Part shown: one piece after another, positions 28,554 to 48,862 of the stretch
Position numbering within the stretch: the first letter of the stretch is position 1
Layout of the letters: each line of letters begins with the position of its first letter
Origin: Georgenia sp. EYE_87
GTDB lineage: Bacteria > Actinomycetota > Actinomycetes > Actinomycetales > Actinomycetaceae
DNA length: 64,000 nucleotides
Direction: 5' to 3'
Assembly (NCBI RefSeq): GCF_023148685.1
Contig: NZ_JAHXNL010000003.1
Span: forward strand, 226,379-290,378
Translations under genes and position numbers: made by a program
Notes under the pieces: generated by a model
The model's database searches: none
Told to the model about the DNA's origin: nothing
The model's input: only the letters and a program-made list of their open reading frames with translations

Positions 28554-29585
28554 TTAGGCGCCGACCGGTGCCTCATCCCGGTCCAGCGCATCCTGGAGAA
28601 TGGGAACGACGTCGGACGCGACCGTCTCGAGCAAGCTCAGGGTGTGGGCGAGCGAGCCGTTCTCGTGCACCTGCACCATCAGCTCCGTGGCGCGCGGGAG
28701 CACCGGGTCTGAGGCGAGCGCGCTGGCGACCGCCGCCGGCGGGCCGGTCGCGATGAACGACAGGTCGAGGTACTCCTCGGTGGTGCGTCCCGGCGGGAAC
28801 TCCCCGGACGAGAGATAGGGCTGGACGTACCGCCGCACGATGTTCGCGACCTCCCGGTCGTCGTCCGGGTCGCCGAGGAGCGGAAGCACAGCTCGCGAGA
28901 CGCCGACCCGAGGCGACGTCCCGGCGGGCAACGCCTGGACATACGCGTCCACGACGGGCTCCTGCGCCTGCGGGGTGGGGATCCCCGCGCCGATCGCCCT
29001 GCGGGCGAGGAGCAGTCCGAGGCCGCGTCGGCCGATGGCCTCCGCGCCGGCGCTGCTGGACGTGGAGTGCCACACCCGGTCCCGCAGCGTGCCCGCCGGG
29101 GGCTGCAGGACCGCTCCGTCGGGTTCGACGGGGTCGCCGTCGAGCGCGCGGAGCAGCGCCTCCAGGACCTCGGCGGCGTGCTGCCGCTGGCGTTCCGGGT
29201 CCCGGCCGAAGGCGCGGAACACGTGCGGCTCCAGGTGGGCGGGCACGCCCGCCCCGACCCCGAGCTCCAGCCGTCCGCCGCTGAGCCGGTCGACGACCAC
29301 GGCGTCCTCGGCCAGCCGGAGGGGGTCCTCGAACGGCAGCGTCACGAGGCCCGTGCCCAGGTGGATGTGCTCGGTCCGCTGCGCCGCCGCCGCGAGGAAC
29401 GGCAGGGTGGACGGCAGCCGGCCGTAGGTGGCACTGAGGTGGTGCTGCGCCACCCACCCGGTGTCGTAGCCGAGCGCCTCGGCGGTCTCAAACACGCGCA
29501 GCGTGCTGGCGTACGCCTCGGTCGCGTCATCCCCGCCGGTGACGTGCGTGAGAAAACCGAGCCGGAGACGCGGGCGAGCGCTCAT
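28554..29585 (-). CDS. LLM-class flavin-dependent monooxygenase (organosulfur operon)
   Basis: 343 residues from the ATG at 29585, which overlaps the stop of the osmC-like gene by 4 bp. The bacterial-luciferase fold is visible in LRLGFLTHVTGG, WVAQHHLSATYG, HIHLGTGLVTLPFEDPLRLAEDAVVVDRLSGGRLELGVGAG. It is the last gene of a five-gene operon with an SsuABC-like importer, and a flavin reductase is divergent, so I infer an FMNH2-dependent oxygenase splitting a C-S bond (like SsuD, SfnG or MsuD). The exact substrate (alkanesulfonate, sulfone, other) cannot be told. The 87 bp after it contain no gene. Confidence 0.85.
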   Translation of the reverse strand: MSARPRLRLGFLTHVTGGDDATEAYASTLRVFETAEALGYDTGWVAQHHLSATYGRLPSTLPFLAAAAQRTEHIHLGTGLVTLPFEDPLRLAEDAVVVDRLSGGRLELGVGAGVPAHLEPHVFRAFGRDPERQRQHAAEVLEALLRALDGDPVEPDGAVLQPPAGTLRDRVWHSTSSSAGAEAIGRRGLGLLLARRAIGAGIPTPQAQEPVVDAYVQALPAGTSPRVGVSRAVLPLLGDPDDDREVANIVRRYVQPYLSSGEFPPGRTTEEYLDLSFIATGPPAAVASALASDPVLPRATELMVQVHENGSLAHTLSLLETVASDVVPILQDALDRDEAPVGA

Positions 29586-30148
29586 CGGGCCACCGCCCGG
29601 TCGACAGCCGTGTTCACGAGCGAGCCGGTGATCGACTGCGGCCGGGTGAGCAGGTTGAGCACCGGGCACACGCGCTCGACCTCAGCGTGGAGCCGGTCCA
29701 GCTGGTCGGCGCCGGCAGGTGAGGAGAGCGTCACGGTGTAGGTGAGGTCCTGGGGCTCCACCGGCACGTCCGGGAAGTCGTCCAGGCCGCCGCGGGGGTC
29801 CAGGCTGCCGCGCACCTCGACGGCGAGCGAGTCGAGCGGCACCTCGAGCTCGGCGGCCTTGATGAGGAAGACGTGGGTCAGGCAGCTGCCGAGCACGCCG
29901 AGCAGCAGCTCGGGCGACGACGGCCCGAGGTCGTAGCCCGCGAAGTCGGCGGGGCTGTCGCTGATCACCTGGAAGTCGCGGATGCGGATGCGGCGGACGC
30001 CGCTGCGCCCCTCCGCGTCCACCCGCGCGGCGAGCTCGGCCCGCGGGTACCCGGCCTGGGCCGAGCGGTCTCGTCGCTCCAGGAGGGCCCGGCGCTTCTG
30101 CTGCAGGTAGCGCCTCAGGCCGCTGGTGGTCTCGGTGTGCTCGCTCAT
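29582..30148 (-). CDS. OsmC-family protein
   Basis: 188 residues from the ATG at 30148, joined by ATGA overlaps to the genes on both sides. The two OsmC cysteines are present: LGSCLTHVFL (about residue 99) and VERVCPVLNLL (about 162). A basic 45-residue N-terminal extension precedes the domain. OsmC/Ohr proteins reduce organic hydroperoxides with two cysteines. In an organosulfur operon it might detoxify a peroxide or handle a thiol or sulfur intermediate released by the monooxygenase; that role is inferred. Confidence 0.87.
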   Translation of the reverse strand: MSEHTETTSGLRRYLQQKRRALLERRDRSAQAGYPRAELAARVDAEGRSGVRRIRIRDFQVISDSPADFAGYDLGPSSPELLLGVLGSCLTHVFLIKAAELEVPLDSLAVEVRGSLDPRGGLDDFPDVPVEPQDLTYTVTLSSPAGADQLDRLHAEVERVCPVLNLLTRPQSITGSLVNTAVDRAVAR

Positions 30149-31170
30149 GCGGAGAGCGCCTCCTCGATCAGCGCGGTGTTCACGACGGTACTCCAGTCGG
30201 GTTCCTCCGAGATGATGCCCAGCTCGACGGAGTCCTGGGCGTCCCGGCTCACCTCGGCGACGAACGCCTCGCCCGGGATGGACAGCTCGTAGTTCCGGCG
30301 GCTCACGGTGAGCTCGGCCGCCTCGAGCGGGAGCTCGTTCTTCTCGGCGAAGAGCGCGACGGCGTCCGCCCGGTTCGCCGTGACCCAGTCGAGGCCCTGC
30401 CGGTACGCGCGCAGGAACGCGACGACGGCGTCCGGGTGCTCCTCGACGAAGGCCGAGTTGCCGGAGATGGTGACGTAGTTGTTGATGTGGTCGCGGCCGC
30501 TGGCGAGGACGCGCGCCTGCCCCGCGACCTCGGCGCGGGCGAAGAACGGGTCCCAGGTCCGCCAGGCGTCGATGGCGCCCGAGACGAGCGCCGCCTGCCC
30601 CTCGTTGTTCTCCAGGCGCACCCACTCGACGTCGTCGACGTCGAGGCCGGCCGTGCGCAGCGCCCGCAGGAAGAAGATGTCGGGCACCGAGTAGGGGCCG
30701 GCGACCTTCTTGCCGCGCAGATCTGCGACCGAGGTCAGCGGGGAGTCCGGCAGCGTCAGGACCGCGTGCGTCTCGGGGCTGCGCTCGACGACGGCGAGGA
30801 TGGTGAGCGGGAGGCCGTTGGCGATGGACACCGTCGGCGTCCCGCTGATCCCGAGGTCTGCCTGTCCGCCCGCGAGCGCCTCGATGATCGGGTCGTAGGA
30901 GAGCAGGCTGTTGAACTGCGGGCTCCAGCCGATCGTCGACAGCTCGTCCGTCAGCAGCTCGCGCTCCTGCAGGGCGTGGGCGACGACGTAGGGCGGCTGG
31001 TACACGAGCCTCAGGGTCCCCGCGGCGCCCGACGCTGCGGCGCCGACAGCGTTGCCCGGCCGGGCGCAGGCGGCCAGGAGTCCGGCCGCGGCCGCGCCGA
31101 GGCCGACGCCGAGGAACCCGCGCCGCGACAGCGACGACGTGACGGTGGTGGTCAGGGATGGAGTGGTCAT
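30145..31170 (-). CDS. SsuA/NitT-TauT-type ABC transporter substrate-binding lipoprotein
   Basis: 341 residues from the ATG at 31170. The N-terminus has SRRGFLGVG, then a hydrophobic stretch and lipobox LLAAC, so export by Tat and lipid anchoring are both plausible. The body is an SsuA/TauA-like receptor: LRLVYQPPYVVAHALQ, ALAGGQADLGISGTPT, LRGKKVAG, WRTWDPFFARAE, VVAFLRAYRQGLDW. The start overlaps the ATPase stop (ATGA). It should bind sulfonates or a related organosulfur compound outside the cell. Confidence 0.88.
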   Translation of the reverse strand: MTTPSLTTTVTSSLSRRGFLGVGLGAAAAGLLAACARPGNAVGAAASGAAGTLRLVYQPPYVVAHALQERELLTDELSTIGWSPQFNSLLSYDPIIEALAGGQADLGISGTPTVSIANGLPLTILAVVERSPETHAVLTLPDSPLTSVADLRGKKVAGPYSVPDIFFLRALRTAGLDVDDVEWVRLENNEGQAALVSGAIDAWRTWDPFFARAEVAGQARVLASGRDHINNYVTISGNSAFVEEHPDAVVAFLRAYRQGLDWVTANRADAVALFAEKNELPLEAAELTVSRRNYELSIPGEAFVAEVSRDAQDSVELGIISEEPDWSTVVNTALIEEALSA

Positions 31171-31934
31171 CTCGTGGTCCTCACGGGAGCTGGGTCGTGG
31201 ATGAGGTGGAAGGCGGCGAGGAGCGCGCGGCGGAGCTCGACGAACTCCTCGCCGGCGCGGTCCCGGGGGTAGGGCAGGTCGATCGGGAGAACCTGCGCGA
31301 CGCGACCGGGCCGTGCGGAGAGCACGACGACCTTCTGCGCGAGCGCGATCGCCTCGTCGATGTCGTGGGTGATGAGCACCGTGGTCACGCCCTGGTCGGC
31401 CCAGATGCCCTGGAGCTCCTCCTGGAGCCGGATCCGGGTGAAGGCGTCGAGCGCACCGAAGGGCTCGTCGAGCAGGAGCACCTCGGGCGCGGGAGCCAGG
31501 GCCCGGGCGATCGCGGCGCGCTGGGCCATCCCGCCGGAGAGCTGGTGAGGGCGGGCACCCTCGAAGCCCTCCAGGCCGACGAGCCGGACCAGCTCCGCGA
31601 CGCGGTCCGGGTCGCGACGTCGGAGACCGAAGCCGATGTTCTCTGCGACGGTGAGCCAGGGCAGCAGCCGGGGCTCCTGGAAGACGATCCCGCGCCTGAT
31701 CGAGGGTCCGGTGACCTTCTCGCCGCCGACCCGCACAAAACCGGAGTGCTGGACGTCCAGGCCGGCGACGGCGCGCAGCAGGGTGGACTTGCCGCACCCG
31801 GACGGGCCGACGAGGGCGACGAACTCGCCCGGGCGCGCGCTGATGTCGACGTCGCTGACCGCGAGCAGCGGTCCGTCCGGCGTCGGGAACTCCCGGCTGA
31901 AGCCGGTGACGAACAGTGAGGCACTCATGCTCAT
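31167..31934 (-). CDS. SsuB-like ABC transporter ATP-binding protein
   Basis: 255 residues from the ATG at 31934, which overlaps the permease stop by 4 bp; a second ATG two codons on (31928) is less likely. Walker A GPSGCGKST is near residue 40, the Q-loop in VFQEPRLLPW, signature LSGGMAQR, Walker B VLLLDEPFGALD and the switch His in ITHDIDEA. PRLLPW and FGALD are typical of the nitrate/sulfonate/taurine ATPases. Part of the importer with the permease and receptor beside it. Confidence 0.92.
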   Translation of the reverse strand: MSMSASLFVTGFSREFPTPDGPLLAVSDVDISARPGEFVALVGPSGCGKSTLLRAVAGLDVQHSGFVRVGGEKVTGPSIRRGIVFQEPRLLPWLTVAENIGFGLRRRDPDRVAELVRLVGLEGFEGARPHQLSGGMAQRAAIARALAPAPEVLLLDEPFGALDAFTRIRLQEELQGIWADQGVTTVLITHDIDEAIALAQKVVVLSARPGRVAQVLPIDLPYPRDRAGEEFVELRRALLAAFHLIHDPAPVRTTR

Positions 31935-32785
31935 CTCCCCGAGTAGGCGTCGCGCCAGGACAGCAGGTGGTGCTCGAGCTGCCGGACGATGACGTCGACG
32001 ACCTTCCCGGCCACCGAGAAGACGAGGAGCGAGGCCAGGACGATGTCGACGCGGACGAACTCGCGCCCCTGGGCGAGCCAGAACCCCAGCCCGCTCGTCG
32101 CACCCATGAGCTCGGCGATGACGAGCGCCAGCCAGGCCACCCCCAGCGCGTAGCGCACCCCGGTGAGCACCTCGGGCAGTGCGGCCGGGATGATGACGCG
32201 GCGGAGCAGGGCGGCGTCGTTGAGCTCGAAGACCTTGCCGACCTCGATGAGCTTGCGGTCCACGTTGCGGATGCCGGCGAACGTGTTGAGGTACAGCGGG
32301 AAGAAGCTGCCGAGCGCGATCAACGTGATCTTGGGTGCCTCGTTCAGGCCGAGCCAGAGGATGAGCAGCGGCGTCAGGCCCATGAAGGGCACGGTGCGCA
32401 GCATCTGGACGGTCGTGTCCAGGAGCGTCTCCGCCCGGCGGGAGAGTCCGGTCAGCGAGCCGAGGAGGACCCCCAGGGCGCCACCGGTCAGGAACCCGGT
32501 GACCCAGCGGAAGCCGCTGGCCCACAGGTGCTCGAGGAGTGTCCCGTCCGTGGCCGCCTGCCAGAGGGTCGAGAAGACGGTCGTCGGGGGCGGGAGCAGC
32601 ACGGGGTTGGCCCAGCCGGAGACCGACGCCGCCTGCCACGCGGCAAGGAGGACGGCAGGGAGCGCGAAGCCCGCGAGCCGTCTGGCGCCTGCTGGTCTCC
32701 TCCGGGTTCGAGCGGGTGGGCCTGCCTCTCGTGCGGGCCCGCGGACGCCGGCGTCCGGCGGCGCGAGCTCGGCGGGTGCGGTCAT
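31931..32785 (-). CDS. SsuC-like ABC transporter permease
   Basis: 284 residues. Start chosen at the ATG at 32785 because GGAG stands 7 bases upstream. After a proline/arginine-rich 40-residue cytoplasmic tail come six membrane segments; the coupling EAA loop is RNVDRKLIEVGKVFELNDAALLRRVIIPAALPEVLTG. The family signature TVPFMGLTPLLILWLGLNEAPK matches SsuC/TauC. It is the first protein gene of the operon, preceded by a 400-nt leader that includes a cysteine-rich peptide frame. Confidence 0.9.
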   Translation of the reverse strand: MTAPAELAPPDAGVRGPAREAGPPARTRRRPAGARRLAGFALPAVLLAAWQAASVSGWANPVLLPPPTTVFSTLWQAATDGTLLEHLWASGFRWVTGFLTGGALGVLLGSLTGLSRRAETLLDTTVQMLRTVPFMGLTPLLILWLGLNEAPKITLIALGSFFPLYLNTFAGIRNVDRKLIEVGKVFELNDAALLRRVIIPAALPEVLTGVRYALGVAWLALVIAELMGATSGLGFWLAQGREFVRVDIVLASLLVFSVAGKVVDVIVRQLEHHLLSWRDAYSGR

Positions 32786-32866
32786 GGTTCGCTCCAACAG
32801 CTTGGTCTGGGCAGGGGGGTCTGGGGTCGGACGGCCGGGAACCCGCGGTCTCCAGGGCCGTCCTCG

Positions 32867-32923
32867 GGTCTCGACCGCATGCACGCCGTCGGCAGGTGGT
32901 CTCGACCGCACGCCGTCGGCAGG
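32867..32923. repeat. Direct repeat in the operon leader
   Basis: GGTCTCGACCGCA followed by CGCCGTCGGCAGG occurs at 32867-32896 (with a 4-bp insert TGCA) and again at 32898-32923. The two copies abut. They lie in the 400-nt untranslated leader between the cysteine-rich frame and the permease start; apart from these repeats I see no gene in 32786-33185. Confidence 0.8.
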
Positions 32924-33166
32924 CTCGTCCGGCGGCGCCCACCGTGGGGCCGGCGGAGAGAACGCGCCGATCAGGTCGCCCGCCGGTCAGGTCGCGCGCC
33001 GGTCGAGGCGTGGCGCTCCCGCGCGGGCCCGAGAGCCGGCGTCGACCCGGACCTCCCGGATCTCGGGTCCAAGGCCGGGCCCGACGGCGGCACGGGTCGC
33101 GGCAGGAGAAGGGAGCACCGGACGCGGACTCGCGAAGCTCGGGGAGCCGGCGTGCCGGGTGGATCA

Positions 33167-33201
33167 GTCCTGCACCAGGTCTTCGTCAGGCGGTGCAGGA
33201 C
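33167..33201 (-). promoter_or_regulatory. Attenuator-like hairpin at the end of the cysteine-rich leader frame
   Basis: GTCCTGCACC (33201-33192 on the minus strand) and GGTGCAGGAC (33176-33167) form a perfect 10-bp stem with a 15-base loop. The fifth cysteine codon of the leader peptide is inside the 5' arm and its stop codon is in the loop. A ribosome stalled at the cysteine codons would cover the 5' arm and prevent the hairpin; a ribosome finishing the peptide would release it. A second small stem, CCGGC/GCCGG at 33147-33158, follows. Confidence 0.55.
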
Positions 33202-33305
33202 CTGCGCATGCAGCGACAACAGCGCGGGGCGGACGTCCCGGGCGCGCAGCTGGGGCGCGCGGCGGAGTGGAGAGAGCGGGTCGAGAAGACCGTCGTTCCC
33301 CTCAT
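33186..33305 (-). CDS. Cysteine-rich leader peptide of the organosulfur operon
   Basis: A 39-codon frame, ATG at 33305, stop TGA at 33186-33188, with GGAGG 4 bases before the start. The product has cysteines at positions 20, 29, 30, 32 and 37, four of them in the last 11 residues (RCCRCMRRSC). It lies about 400 nt upstream of the first structural gene on the same strand. Short frames with clustered cysteine codons upstream of sulfur genes act as cysteine-responsive attenuators in mycobacteria and are widespread in actinobacteria. The stop codon lies in the loop of a perfect 10-bp hairpin. Existence and role are inferred from sequence; a competing 82-codon frame overlaps it but has only a TTG start. 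Confidence 0.6.
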   Translation of the reverse strand: MRGTTVFSTRSLHSAARPSCAPGTSAPRCCRCMRRSCTA

Positions 33306-33388
33306 GGTTCCTCCGTCATCGGTCGTTTGCGGGCGGCCGCTCCTGGGTCCGCCTCGGTCGGGACACTGTCAGCCGCCGCCGCTCGGGC

Positions 33389-33402
33389 GGGACCGAGGTC
33401 CC
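33389..33402. promoter_or_regulatory. Palindrome GGGACCGAGGTCCC in the divergent control region
   Basis: A perfect 14-bp interrupted palindrome (6-bp arms, 2-bp centre), 150 bp upstream of the flavin reductase and 85 bp upstream of the leader peptide on the other strand. It is a candidate operator for the divergent organosulfur genes. No regulator gene is adjacent. Confidence 0.35.
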
Positions 33403-33550
33403 TTGTTTCTCGCATCGCAAGACGCGAACCACCCCCACGACCCTCGGGATCTTCCGGGATGAGACAGGCGAACCAGCCAGGCCGACCGCCACGGGCGGCT
33501 CGGTAGTGTCCGGGCCGCAAGCCTGACGGGACCGAGGAAGGGGCGAGCTC

Positions 33551-34081
33551 GTGACAGTCGAGTGCATCGCGGACCGGCACGCCGCCGCTGCGGGGATCAG
33601 CCCCGACGATTTCAAGGCCGTCTTCCGTAACCATCCGGCGGGCGTCGCGGTCGTCACCCTCCGCGGCCCGGACGGCCCCGTCGGCTTCACGGCGACGTCG
33701 GTCACCTCCGTCTCCGCGGCACCTCCGGTGCTGGCGTTCTCCCTGGCCGCGGCGTCCTCCTCGCGGCCGGCTCTGGAACGGGCCAGCTCCGTCGTCGTCA
33801 ACTTCCTCGCCGAGGACCAGCGGGACGTCGCCGCGACGTTCGCCCGGCGCGGGGTGGACCGCTTCGCGCAGGTGGCGTGGACCTCGCTGCCCACCGGCGA
33901 GCCGGTGCTCCGCGGAGTCACGGCGTGGGTGCGCGGCGAGATCGACGAGCGCATCCCGGTGGGCGACAGCCTGCTCGTGACCGTCCGCGCCGGCCTCTCG
34001 GCACGGCACGACGGCACACGGCCCCTGGTGTACGTCGACCGGACCTACCACCGCCTCGGCGACCACGGCCTGTCCGAGTAG
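33551..34081 (+). CDS. Flavin reductase-family protein (FMN reductase partner)
   Basis: 176 residues from the GTG at 33551, with GAGGAAGGGG upstream. The flavin-reductase-like (split-barrel) domain is plain: DFKAVFRNHPAGVAVVTLRG, GFTATSVTSVSAAPPVLAFSLAAASSS, VVNFLAEDQRDVAATFA and a closing GTRPLVYVDRTYHRL. These enzymes reduce FMN with NAD(P)H and hand it to a monooxygenase. It diverges from the operon that ends in a luciferase-like monooxygenase, so the two probably form a two-component oxygenase. Confidence 0.9.
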   Translation: MTVECIADRHAAAAGISPDDFKAVFRNHPAGVAVVTLRGPDGPVGFTATSVTSVSAAPPVLAFSLAAASSSRPALERASSVVVNFLAEDQRDVAATFARRGVDRFAQVAWTSLPTGEPVLRGVTAWVRGEIDERIPVGDSLLVTVRAGLSARHDGTRPLVYVDRTYHRLGDHGLSE

Positions 34082-46461: not shown

Positions 46462-46600
46462 CACACGAGAAGGGAGGTGGTCCAGAGGTGAATATTCTTC
46501 GGACGCGTGAGGTGGCTACCCGCTAGCCCGTCTGTGGACGGACCCCCAAGGTCCTCCCGCCGACGGGCGGCGAGAACCAGGTGGTCACCGGAGTCCGCGG
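46462..46600 (+). ncRNA. Candidate structured leader or small RNA with a 12-codon frame
   Basis: After the promoter comes AAGGGAGGTGG, a near-perfect Shine-Dalgarno, then GTG at 46488 opening a 12-codon frame (VNILRTREVATR) that stops at 46526. The codons AAT ATT CTT are strikingly AT-rich for this genome. Three small stems follow: CCGTC/GACGG (46528-46541), GGACC/GGTCC (46540-46554) and CCGCC/GGCGG (46557-46570). Codon choice suggests that the DNA or RNA sequence, not only the peptide, is under selection. The rest of the 350-bp gap up to 46758 shows no gene. It could be the leader of the ACT-domain gene or a free small RNA; I cannot name the family. Confidence 0.35.
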
Positions 46601-46758
46601 GGCCGTGACATCGTCCATCACGGCACCCGGCCGAACGGCCGGGAACCCGCGGGCTCTCCCATGCTCGGCGGCGGGGATCGCCCACCGGCGGCGCACGGTT
46701 TACGCAACGGTTTCGTCCCGGCAACGCCGCCGGAACGGTCCGCCGTCACCCTTGGGCC

Positions 46759-47622: not shown

Positions 47623-48862
47623 CCAGGTGCGCGCCGCCGTCACGAGCGCGGTCACGCCGAGGCCCAGCGTCGGCTCGACGACCGGGGCGTAGCGGGGCGA
47701 GTGGTTGGACGGCACCGTCAGCAGGGCCGGGTCGGACATGTCCCCGGTCGTGAAGAGGGACGGGTCCGTGCCGCCCAGCAACCAGTAGGACAGCGGTGCG
47801 CCCGAGCTCGTCGAGAGCACACCGACATCCTCGCTCCCGGCTCCGGCCCCCGGGTCCAGGACGTTCTCCGTGCCCAGCCAGGCGCCGAAGGCGTCGAGCG
47901 TCCGCTGCAGTGCCGCGGCGTCGTTCGCCACGACGGGGAACCGCTCGATCTCGGTGATCGTCGGCTCCTTCGGGGCTCCCGCCGTTGCGGCCTCGCCCCT
48001 CACGATGCGCGCGACGGCGTCGAGGATCCGCCGGCGCACGTGCTCGTCGTAGCTGCGGATGTTCAGCCGCAGCTCGGCCTCGCCGGGAATGACGTTCGCG
48101 GCATCGCCGGCGTGGATCGCGCCGATCGTGAGGACCGCGGTCGCCGTGCTCGGGATCTCGCGGGAGATGATCGTCTGCAGCCGGAGCACGGTCTCGGCGG
48201 CCATGACCACGGGATCGACCGAGGCCTCGGGCATCGACCCGTGGGCGCCCGTGCCGAAGAGGCGGACGCGCAGGGAGTCCGAGCCGGCGTACGACGGGCC
48301 CGCATGGCCCGCGACCCTGCCGGCGGGCAGCGGAGCGACGTGCTGCCCCAGCACGACGTCGGGCCGCGGGAACCGGACGAACAGGCCGTCGTCGACCATC
48401 GCCTGCGCGCCGGCGCCGAGCTCCTCCGCCGGCTGGAAGACCAGGAGCAACGTCCCGGCCCACGTGGACCGGTCGCGCGAGAGGACCTCCGCGGCGCCCA
48501 GCAGGCAGGCCGTGTGGAGGTCGTGGCCGCAGGCGTGGGAGACCGGGACGAGCACCCCGCCCTCGTTCCGGGCCGTCGCGGTGCTGGCGTACGCCAGACC
48601 GGTGTCCTCGGCGACCGGGAGCGCGTCCATGTCGGCCCGCAGCAGGGCGACCGGACCGGACCCGTTCCTCAGCAGCCCCACCACCCCGGTGCGTCCGAGC
48701 CCTCCGTGACGTCGAACCCCAGCGCGCGGAGCCGCTCGGCCACGACCCTCGCCGTCCGGTGCTCCTGGAACCCGAGCTCGGGATGGCGATGAAGGTCCTA
48801 CGCGGCGGCCCTCCTCGCAGCGTGCCCGATCTGTCGTCCGCGCCCTGCGGAGCCGGTGGCAT
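47608..48862 (-). pseudogene. M20-family amidohydrolase, frame broken at two sites
   Basis: The gene reads cleanly from about 48700 to the stop at 47608: LLRADMDALPV, the metal residues in HACGHDLHTA, PAEELGAGAQ, GTGAHGSMPE and NHSPRYAP, as in aminoacylase/hippurate hydrolase enzymes. The conserved start DLHRHPELGFQEHRTA ... GFDVTEG is in another frame (48797-48700). One missing G near 48700 (GAGGG) separates it from GRTGVVGLL, and one missing G near 48796 (TAGGAC) would turn an in-frame TAG into ...RRDLHRH and join it to an ATG at 48862. With both restored the protein is 418 residues. Shortened G-runs suggest sequencing error, but real decay is possible; the proposed ATG is only 9 bp from the divergent gene's start. 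Confidence 0.75.

Follow-up and report, generated by a model that had tools for sequence, protein, structure and literature searches.

The window, meaning the whole stretch of DNA analysed here (64,000 nt, 64 kb), carries on its minus strand an organosulfur-type operon, as judged from profile matches, in which three ssu-like transporter genes are followed by genes for an OsmC family protein and a luciferase-like monooxygenase (ssuCBA-osmC-LLM), and a divergent flavin reductase gene lies on the other side (Table 1). Ahead of the operon stands an uncalled cysteine-rich frame for the peptide MRGTTVFSTRSLHSAARPSCAPGTSAPRCCRCMRRSCTA, with its ATG at 33305 and its TGA at 33188-33186. The elements that an earlier note had listed are all present: a 39-codon minus-strand frame with GGAGG before its ATG and five Cys codons, four of them within the last 11 codons, and a perfect 10-bp inverted repeat, whose 5′ arm includes the last Cys codon (33197-33195) and whose loop includes the TGA. 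The note's view of this frame as a leader with its own Shine-Dalgarno sequence (SD) and ATG, preceding an organosulfur-type operon, is also supported. In the spacer before ssuC, 16-nt direct repeats form two sets that overlap (32867-32923), with spacings of 27 and 31.

Table 1. Features of the window at the cysteine-rich leader and its operon (positions of the whole window)
Feature	Position	Strand	Remarks
Cys-rich leader ORF	33186..33305	(-)	39 codons, ATG to TGA; frame open in seven copies
Shine-Dalgarno GGAGG	33310..33314 (33314-33310)	(-)	4 nt 5′ of leader ATG
Putative sensing Cys codons, five	span 33195..33248	(-)	codons 20, 29, 30, 32, 37
Hairpin	33167..33201	(-)	5′ arm 33192-33201, TGA-bearing loop 33177-33191, 3′ arm 33167-33176
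Spacer, leader stop to first gene	32786..33185	(-)	400 nt, without U-tract
ssuC-like sulfonate ABC permease, first gene of operon	31931..32785	(-)	PRK11365 SsuC E 6e-72, under cut-off; SD-led start 32785
ssuB-like ABC ATPase	31167..31928	(-)	ABC_tran in frame 31167-32942
ssuA-like substrate-binding protein	30145..31170	(-)	TIGR01728 E 3e-45, 154.6 bits, cut-off 163.5 not reached
OsmC family protein	29582..30148	(-)	profile match
Luciferase-like monooxygenase	28554..29585	(-)	nearest NCBIfam TIGR04027 LLM_KPN_01858, 252 bits, cut-off 413 not reached
Divergent flavin reductase	33551..34081	(+)	adjoins window leader

Each part of this arrangement, taken singly, is not rare in the GC-rich window. 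Short frames with at least four Cys codons number 11 in the 64 kb, at least four Cys within the last 12 codons are found in 5 of 1042 stop-ended frames, and there are 14 overlapping perfect 10-bp repeats. The local hairpin of 48 nt has a folding energy of -21.5 kcal/mol, a value matched by 3 of 200 shuffles (z -2.7), and the folding of the 241 nt around it is unremarkable (z -0.08). It is because the combination is conserved that it goes beyond chance, and the noted feature is in this respect confirmed as real at the sequence level. Another Cys-rich short ATG frame of the window, MSVCSRRARAHRCPTGCWAARTRPSSRPGTCPTRPC (47718-47828, minus strand), is probably an out-of-frame reading.

The element, comprising an SD, a Cys-rich frame of 37-40 codons and a hairpin that encloses the TGA, was found in seven copies in six of the nine genomes of the window genus. 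Two copies, W at the locus described above and C4, belong to the window genome, and the others are named here after their genomes, G119, G076, G094, G052 and G022. C4 was found by BLASTN of intergenic DNA of the same genome (33 bp, 91%, E 1.9e-5, in the SD-start region); it has an SD, an ATG, a 40-codon Cys-containing frame and the arms GTCCTGGACC...GGTCCAGGAC, whose loop contains the TGA. The G119 copy was found through the SD-start pattern, and those of G076 and G094 were reached through orthologues of the C4 binding protein. A covariance model of the first three copies (R1) recovers the unseen copies of G094 (E 1.5e-17) and G076 (E 2e-8), and a five-copy model finds G052 at E 6e-23 and G022 at E 8e-4. 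The start context GGAGGAAC[G/C]ATG occurs in six of the seven copies, and G022 has GGAG. The G022 copy is weaker, without a Cys cluster near the stem, and scores below L138, a false match that lies within coding sequence; it was accepted because its frame ends in MRRSCAG followed by the stop, its 9-bp stem is perfect and it precedes an SBP_bac_5 transporter operon. Twelve borderline loci in the genus were inspected: L132 (G052) and L133 (G022) were retained, L138, which ranked above L133, was rejected together with L139 and L146 as coding sequence, and L134-L136, L140-L142 and L147 were also rejected on inspection. The remaining genomes, G107, G126 and G133, had no match with an E below 0.0035; four of their matches were inspected, and all four were rejected.

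No homologue was recognised outside the genus: in a covariance search of 396 genomes of the order, the window genome alone gave a clear match. Weak matches at E 7e-4 to 0.1 were found in 68 other genomes, about 40 of which chance would account for if the rough E-values are right, and none of the 29 weak loci inspected (L100-L128, including L116, which lies near a contig end and yielded no sequence) is a leader. When the 39-aa peptide was compared by tBLASTn with 200 genomes of the family, the matches besides itself were of E 0.0048 or more and indistinguishable from chance. The window operon is not found in other members of the genus (best SsuC 43%). In an SsuC search of the 396 order genomes, three besides its own genome pass E 1e-65, and the regions upstream of 16 SsuC homologues, scanned for Cys-rich frames, contain nothing leader-like.

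Within the genus, the GTCCTG of the stem starts 13 nt before the leader TGA, and the arm letters GGTCCTG and CAGGAC are invariant, in all seven copies; the spacing between the arms ranges from 10 to 25 nt, and the isolated hairpins have energies of -17.3 to -30.3 kcal/mol. On the model-fitted alignment of the seven copies, 97.1% of the stem cells are paired, and sliding the partner by 1-3 columns lowers the paired cells from 97% to 26-41%. Seven of the ten stem pairs never vary. Two of the three variable ones show compensatory changes (G-C/C-G in one, and G-C/A-U with a G-U in the other), and the third departs by an unpaired cell; the pair 143-183 is unpaired or gapped in three copies. The covariation score is matched by 22 of 500 shuffles and the number of doubly changed pairs by 333 of 500. 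Stem covariation thus appears modest, supportive and not decisive, because there are only seven sequences and they were aligned to fit the structure. The conservation of Cys leader and stem that the earlier note had proposed looking for in relatives is nevertheless found, with these copies in six of nine genomes and the two compensatory pairs.

Signals expected of a classical attenuator were sought around the stem. Of the seven copies, only G094 has a U-tract (T4 or longer) in the 600 nt that follow the leader (at +273), and no terminator-like site was found on the leader strand between 32700 and 33600 of the window. Neither arm showed a conserved excess of competing pairing in the 45 nt upstream and 30 nt downstream (mean z 0.3 and -0.1), a span beyond which longer-range partners would fall. 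None of the Rfam covariance models matched the window from 32780 to 33560, containing the W copy, at E up to 1. Elsewhere in the window, at 46463-46662 (plus strand), the actinobacterial sRNA Ms_IGR-5 of Rfam is matched at 74.3 bits (gathering 45).

Cysteine accounts for 30 of the 272 in-frame codons over the seven leaders, a number reached by none of 2000 composition shuffles; one antisense frame of the leader DNA has 21 Cys in 265 codons. The choice of codon is also unusual, with TGT at 16 of the 30 Cys codons in the leaders versus 0 of 30 in a reference of twelve window-genome genes comprising 4471 codons (Fisher 1.9e-6), and at 4 of 8 in the two window-genome leaders versus the same reference (Fisher 9e-4). 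Most of the Cys codons (25 of 30) begin 11-83 nt before the stem. The nearest upstream Cys codon lies 11 nt from the stem in five copies and 20 nt from it in C4, and in G022, apart from the in-stem codon, no Cys is nearer to the stem than 77 nt. The in-stem codon itself is TGC in five copies and TGG (Trp) in the other two, C4 and G119; in G076, G052 and G094 the TGC is kept despite having no stem partner.

Codon usage does not support coding of the leader frame. Its codon score is -19.0; for 74 gene windows the median is 25.3 and the minimum -18.9. The same DNA scores higher when read in other frames (-0.2 sense, 6.4 antisense); the absence of the usual G/C skew has also been reported for Cys-rich regulatory sORFs of M. 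tuberculosis (PMC9094748). The frame 32971-33219, considered as a gene remnant on account of the better coding score elsewhere, has no Pfam match. Only three of the 41 alignment columns of the leader peptides are invariant (M1, M33, S36), lengths vary from 37 to 40 residues and Cys positions shift, a loose sequence with few invariant residues that looks like a leader peptide rather than a protein. The seven peptides gave zero matches to NCBIfam and Pfam. They also leave the putative leader peptide model NF042934 (19 positions) unmatched at E up to 10, a range in which the HMMER filters drop most matches above about 0.1.

Behind the leaders, the next gene starts 208-568 nt from the leader stop in six copies and 311 nt from it in G052. 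The C4 operon encodes a TIGR04028 binding protein, two permeases, a double ABC ATPase, a TIGR04027 monooxygenase and TIGR04029/TIGR04030 proteins. The leader lies directly upstream of the TIGR04028 protein in all four genus genomes in which this protein is at least 82% identical to that of C4, the C4 genome included; those of G119, G076 and G094 are 82-93% identical to it, and all four exceed the TIGR04028 cut-off. TIGR04027 is matched above its cut-off downstream in C4, G076 and G094, the DNA of G119 not being covered that far. In G052, the leader precedes a shortened TIGR04030-like gene, across the join of a contig taken as circular, and the locus is perhaps a decayed operon. A flavin reductase is present there (L158/L159, contig end and start), and the G052 genome gave no close TIGR04028 relative when searched. 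As at the window locus, divergent flavin reductase genes adjoin the leaders of G094 and G052. The neighbouring gene is a 2-phosphosulfolactate phosphatase-like gene in C4 and proB in G119. All seven copies sit upstream of sulfur-type genes or transporter operons, and the downstream genes are predicted to be organosulfur-type by their SsuA/SsuC-like, TIGR04027, TIGR04029/04030 and flavin reductase matches. The same type of leader is thus found before different operons, in the manner of a cassette that can be reused. PF01507 (PAPS reductase) was detected in 0 of the 9 genus genomes versus 11 of 14 control genomes. The whole genus may therefore lack assimilatory sulfate reduction, and organosulfur compounds may be a main sulfur source for it.

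The element is likely to be a cis-acting, ribosome-dependent cysteine sensor, or leader-peptide attenuator, for organosulfur-type uptake/monooxygenase operons, which probably lets the cell switch its sulfur-scavenging operons on when cysteine is short; the cysteine dependence and the direction of control are what we infer from the codons and the gene context. By geometry, a ribosome at the TGA would cover the 5′ arm, so that the hairpin and a terminating ribosome look mutually exclusive. When Cys-tRNA is plentiful, the ribosome would reach the TGA, open the hairpin and leave, and operon expression would be low. When Cys-tRNA is short, the ribosome would stall at the UGU/UGC codons before the stem (in five copies also within it), and readthrough into the operon would rise. 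Stalling would occur mostly before the stem and leave the hairpin able to form. Because 25 of the 30 Cys codons precede the stem, we favour a hairpin that exists during the stall, when it would be the ON form or would protect the RNA surrounding the stop codon, rather than one that acts as terminator. Candidate read-outs are Rho, RNA polymerase pausing, RNA decay or translation, with Rho as the natural suspect. A wider interpretation is offered tentatively: the element may be a genus-wide, reusable stop-codon gate without an intrinsic terminator, reused before unrelated organosulfur-type operons (ssuCBA-osmC-LLM, the TIGR04028 transporter operons and the lone TIGR04030-like gene) in a genus apparently without sulfate reduction. 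It would then represent a distinct class of ribosome-gated attenuator with a Rho or RNA-decay read-out, and would supply the structural element that has been missing from actinobacterial Cys leaders.

Among more specific explanations, Rho-dependent attenuation of the tnaC type is a reasonable possibility, if not the expected outcome. The leader ribosome would control access of Rho to the untranslated spacer, and the hairpin would tune this access or slow the polymerase. Such control was suggested for mycobacterial cys leaders in 2005, in a paper that reports no conserved hairpin for them (PMC1262725), and it would suit spacers of 208-568 nt in which no intrinsic terminator is seen. The C-over-G skew of the spacer is larger than that of the following 1500 nt in six of the seven copies. 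However, the excess is small in most of them, with downstream windows equalling the spacer in 6 of 22 cases for W, 10 of 21 for G076, 6 of 25 for G094 and 10 of 24 for G052; only in C4 (1 of 23), G119 (1 of 19) and G022 (3 of 26) is the spacer skew rarely reached downstream. A consistently C-rich spacer was not found across the seven copies, and the 120 nt after the stop, aligned for all seven, show no shared motif by eye.

The mechanism of the earlier note, in which a ribosome stalled at the in-stem Cys codon occupies the 5′ arm and thereby allows the polymerase past a hairpin that is itself a terminator-like or roadblock attenuator, is unlikely. The note is partly supported, in its leader, operon and hairpin; support is lacking for the in-stem stall as a shared trigger and for simple termination. 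The hairpin is stable in isolation in every copy, and the retention of the in-stem TGC in five copies, unpaired in three of them (G076, G052, G094), fits such a role. However, in C4 and G119 the codon specifies Trp, so that stalling there cannot be the shared trigger, and a ribosome stalled at the upstream positions, where most Cys codons lie, would leave the hairpin mostly free. U-tracts are lacking except for the run of T4 or longer in G094, and the gene start is distant, so that the sequence shows no sign of simple intrinsic termination or of SD masking.

Still less probable is that the inverted repeat serves as a DNA operator for a sulfur-responsive repressor and that the Cys frame is incidental. 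The identity of both arms in all copies would agree with this, but the SD, the open frame, the position of the TGA and the Cys excess with its TGT codons are conserved together with them, the variable arm spacing is unlike an operator, and in two of the pairs both partners change. A small Cys-rich protein with a function of its own, for example a metal- or thiol-binding one, would also be SD-led and conserved within the genus, but is highly improbable given the few invariant columns, the varying lengths, the shifting Cys with replacement by Trp in two copies, the lack of NCBIfam or Pfam matches and the position of all seven frames upstream of sulfur-type genes or transporter operons.

As a putative leader-peptide cysteine sensor, the family can be compared with known systems. 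Mycobacterial polycysteine leaderless sORFs are reported to attenuate downstream translation according to cysteine supply (Canestrari et al., 2020, as cited in PMC9031893, PMC9094748 and PMC13236596). As described in those citing papers, they share with the window family a short ORF rich in Cys codons (here 30 of 272) upstream of sulfur genes. The window family differs in being SD-led, in its 37-40 codons, in its stop-enclosing hairpin and long spacer, and in preceding organosulfur-type uptake rather than cysteine biosynthesis operons. An SD precedes all seven leader frames (only GGAG in G022), none of which is predicted to have a leaderless start, in keeping with the distinction from the mycobacterial cases that had been drawn for the window copy. 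Candidate Cys leaders of actinobacterial cys/cbs operons (Seliverstov et al., 2005) likewise have Cys codons in runs close to the stop codon and no obvious terminator; their mode of regulation is called unknown there, and they are reported to have no recognisable regulatory RNA structure or conserved hairpin, whereas all seven copies here have a hairpin (PMC1262725). As in attenuators of the trp/ilvB1 type, so far as ilvB1 is outlined in PMC13236596, the control codons precede a hairpin that can be blocked by a ribosome at the stop codon, which is an antiterminator geometry; unlike in those, no U-tract terminator was found, nor any competing hairpin within the 45 nt upstream and 30 nt downstream. 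The uORFC-8-2 before cysS of Rhodobacterales also combines conserved Cys codons with RNA structure, but its first stem holds the Cys codons, the motif as a whole ends in a U run, and it belongs to other genes in another phylum (PMC8632094). A description of the window-family element was not found in the literature covered, which included few subscription papers.

To the actinobacterial Cys leaders, the family would add a conserved hairpin, and since this lies at a fixed distance of 13 nt from the stop, the mechanism is directly testable. It would also connect the sensing of cysteine with organosulfur-type scavenging, in bacteria for whose genus no PAPS reductase was detected. For the operons of TIGR04028/TIGR04027 (KPN_01854/KPN_01858), which NCBIfam names only as hypothetical equivalogs, it suggests a regulatory signal and hence a role in sulfur metabolism. 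NF042934 (cis_reg_atten) describes similarly short putative leader peptides, and frames of RLHVDL type that match it weakly precede TIGR04028 genes in other genera. The window family does not match it, and the resemblance of TRSLH/WRRLH is insignificant (hhalign probability 1%). Outside the genus, other leader-like frames occur at 4 of 29 non-own TIGR04028 loci among the best 30 from matches in 79 genomes; only RLHVDL and RHVDHC were counted, because a loose H-V-D motif occurs in 8 sense and 4 antisense places. The RLHVDL-type frames at three of these loci match NF042934 weakly (E 7e-4, 0.033 and 0.059, all under the cut-off). In G244, which belongs to another family, an SD-led leader-like frame without an NCBIfam match, MLNRCDRGFFASRRRHVDHCRCGATACR (RHVDHCRC; L164, 873-960, plus strand), lies upstream of a TIGR04028 gene.
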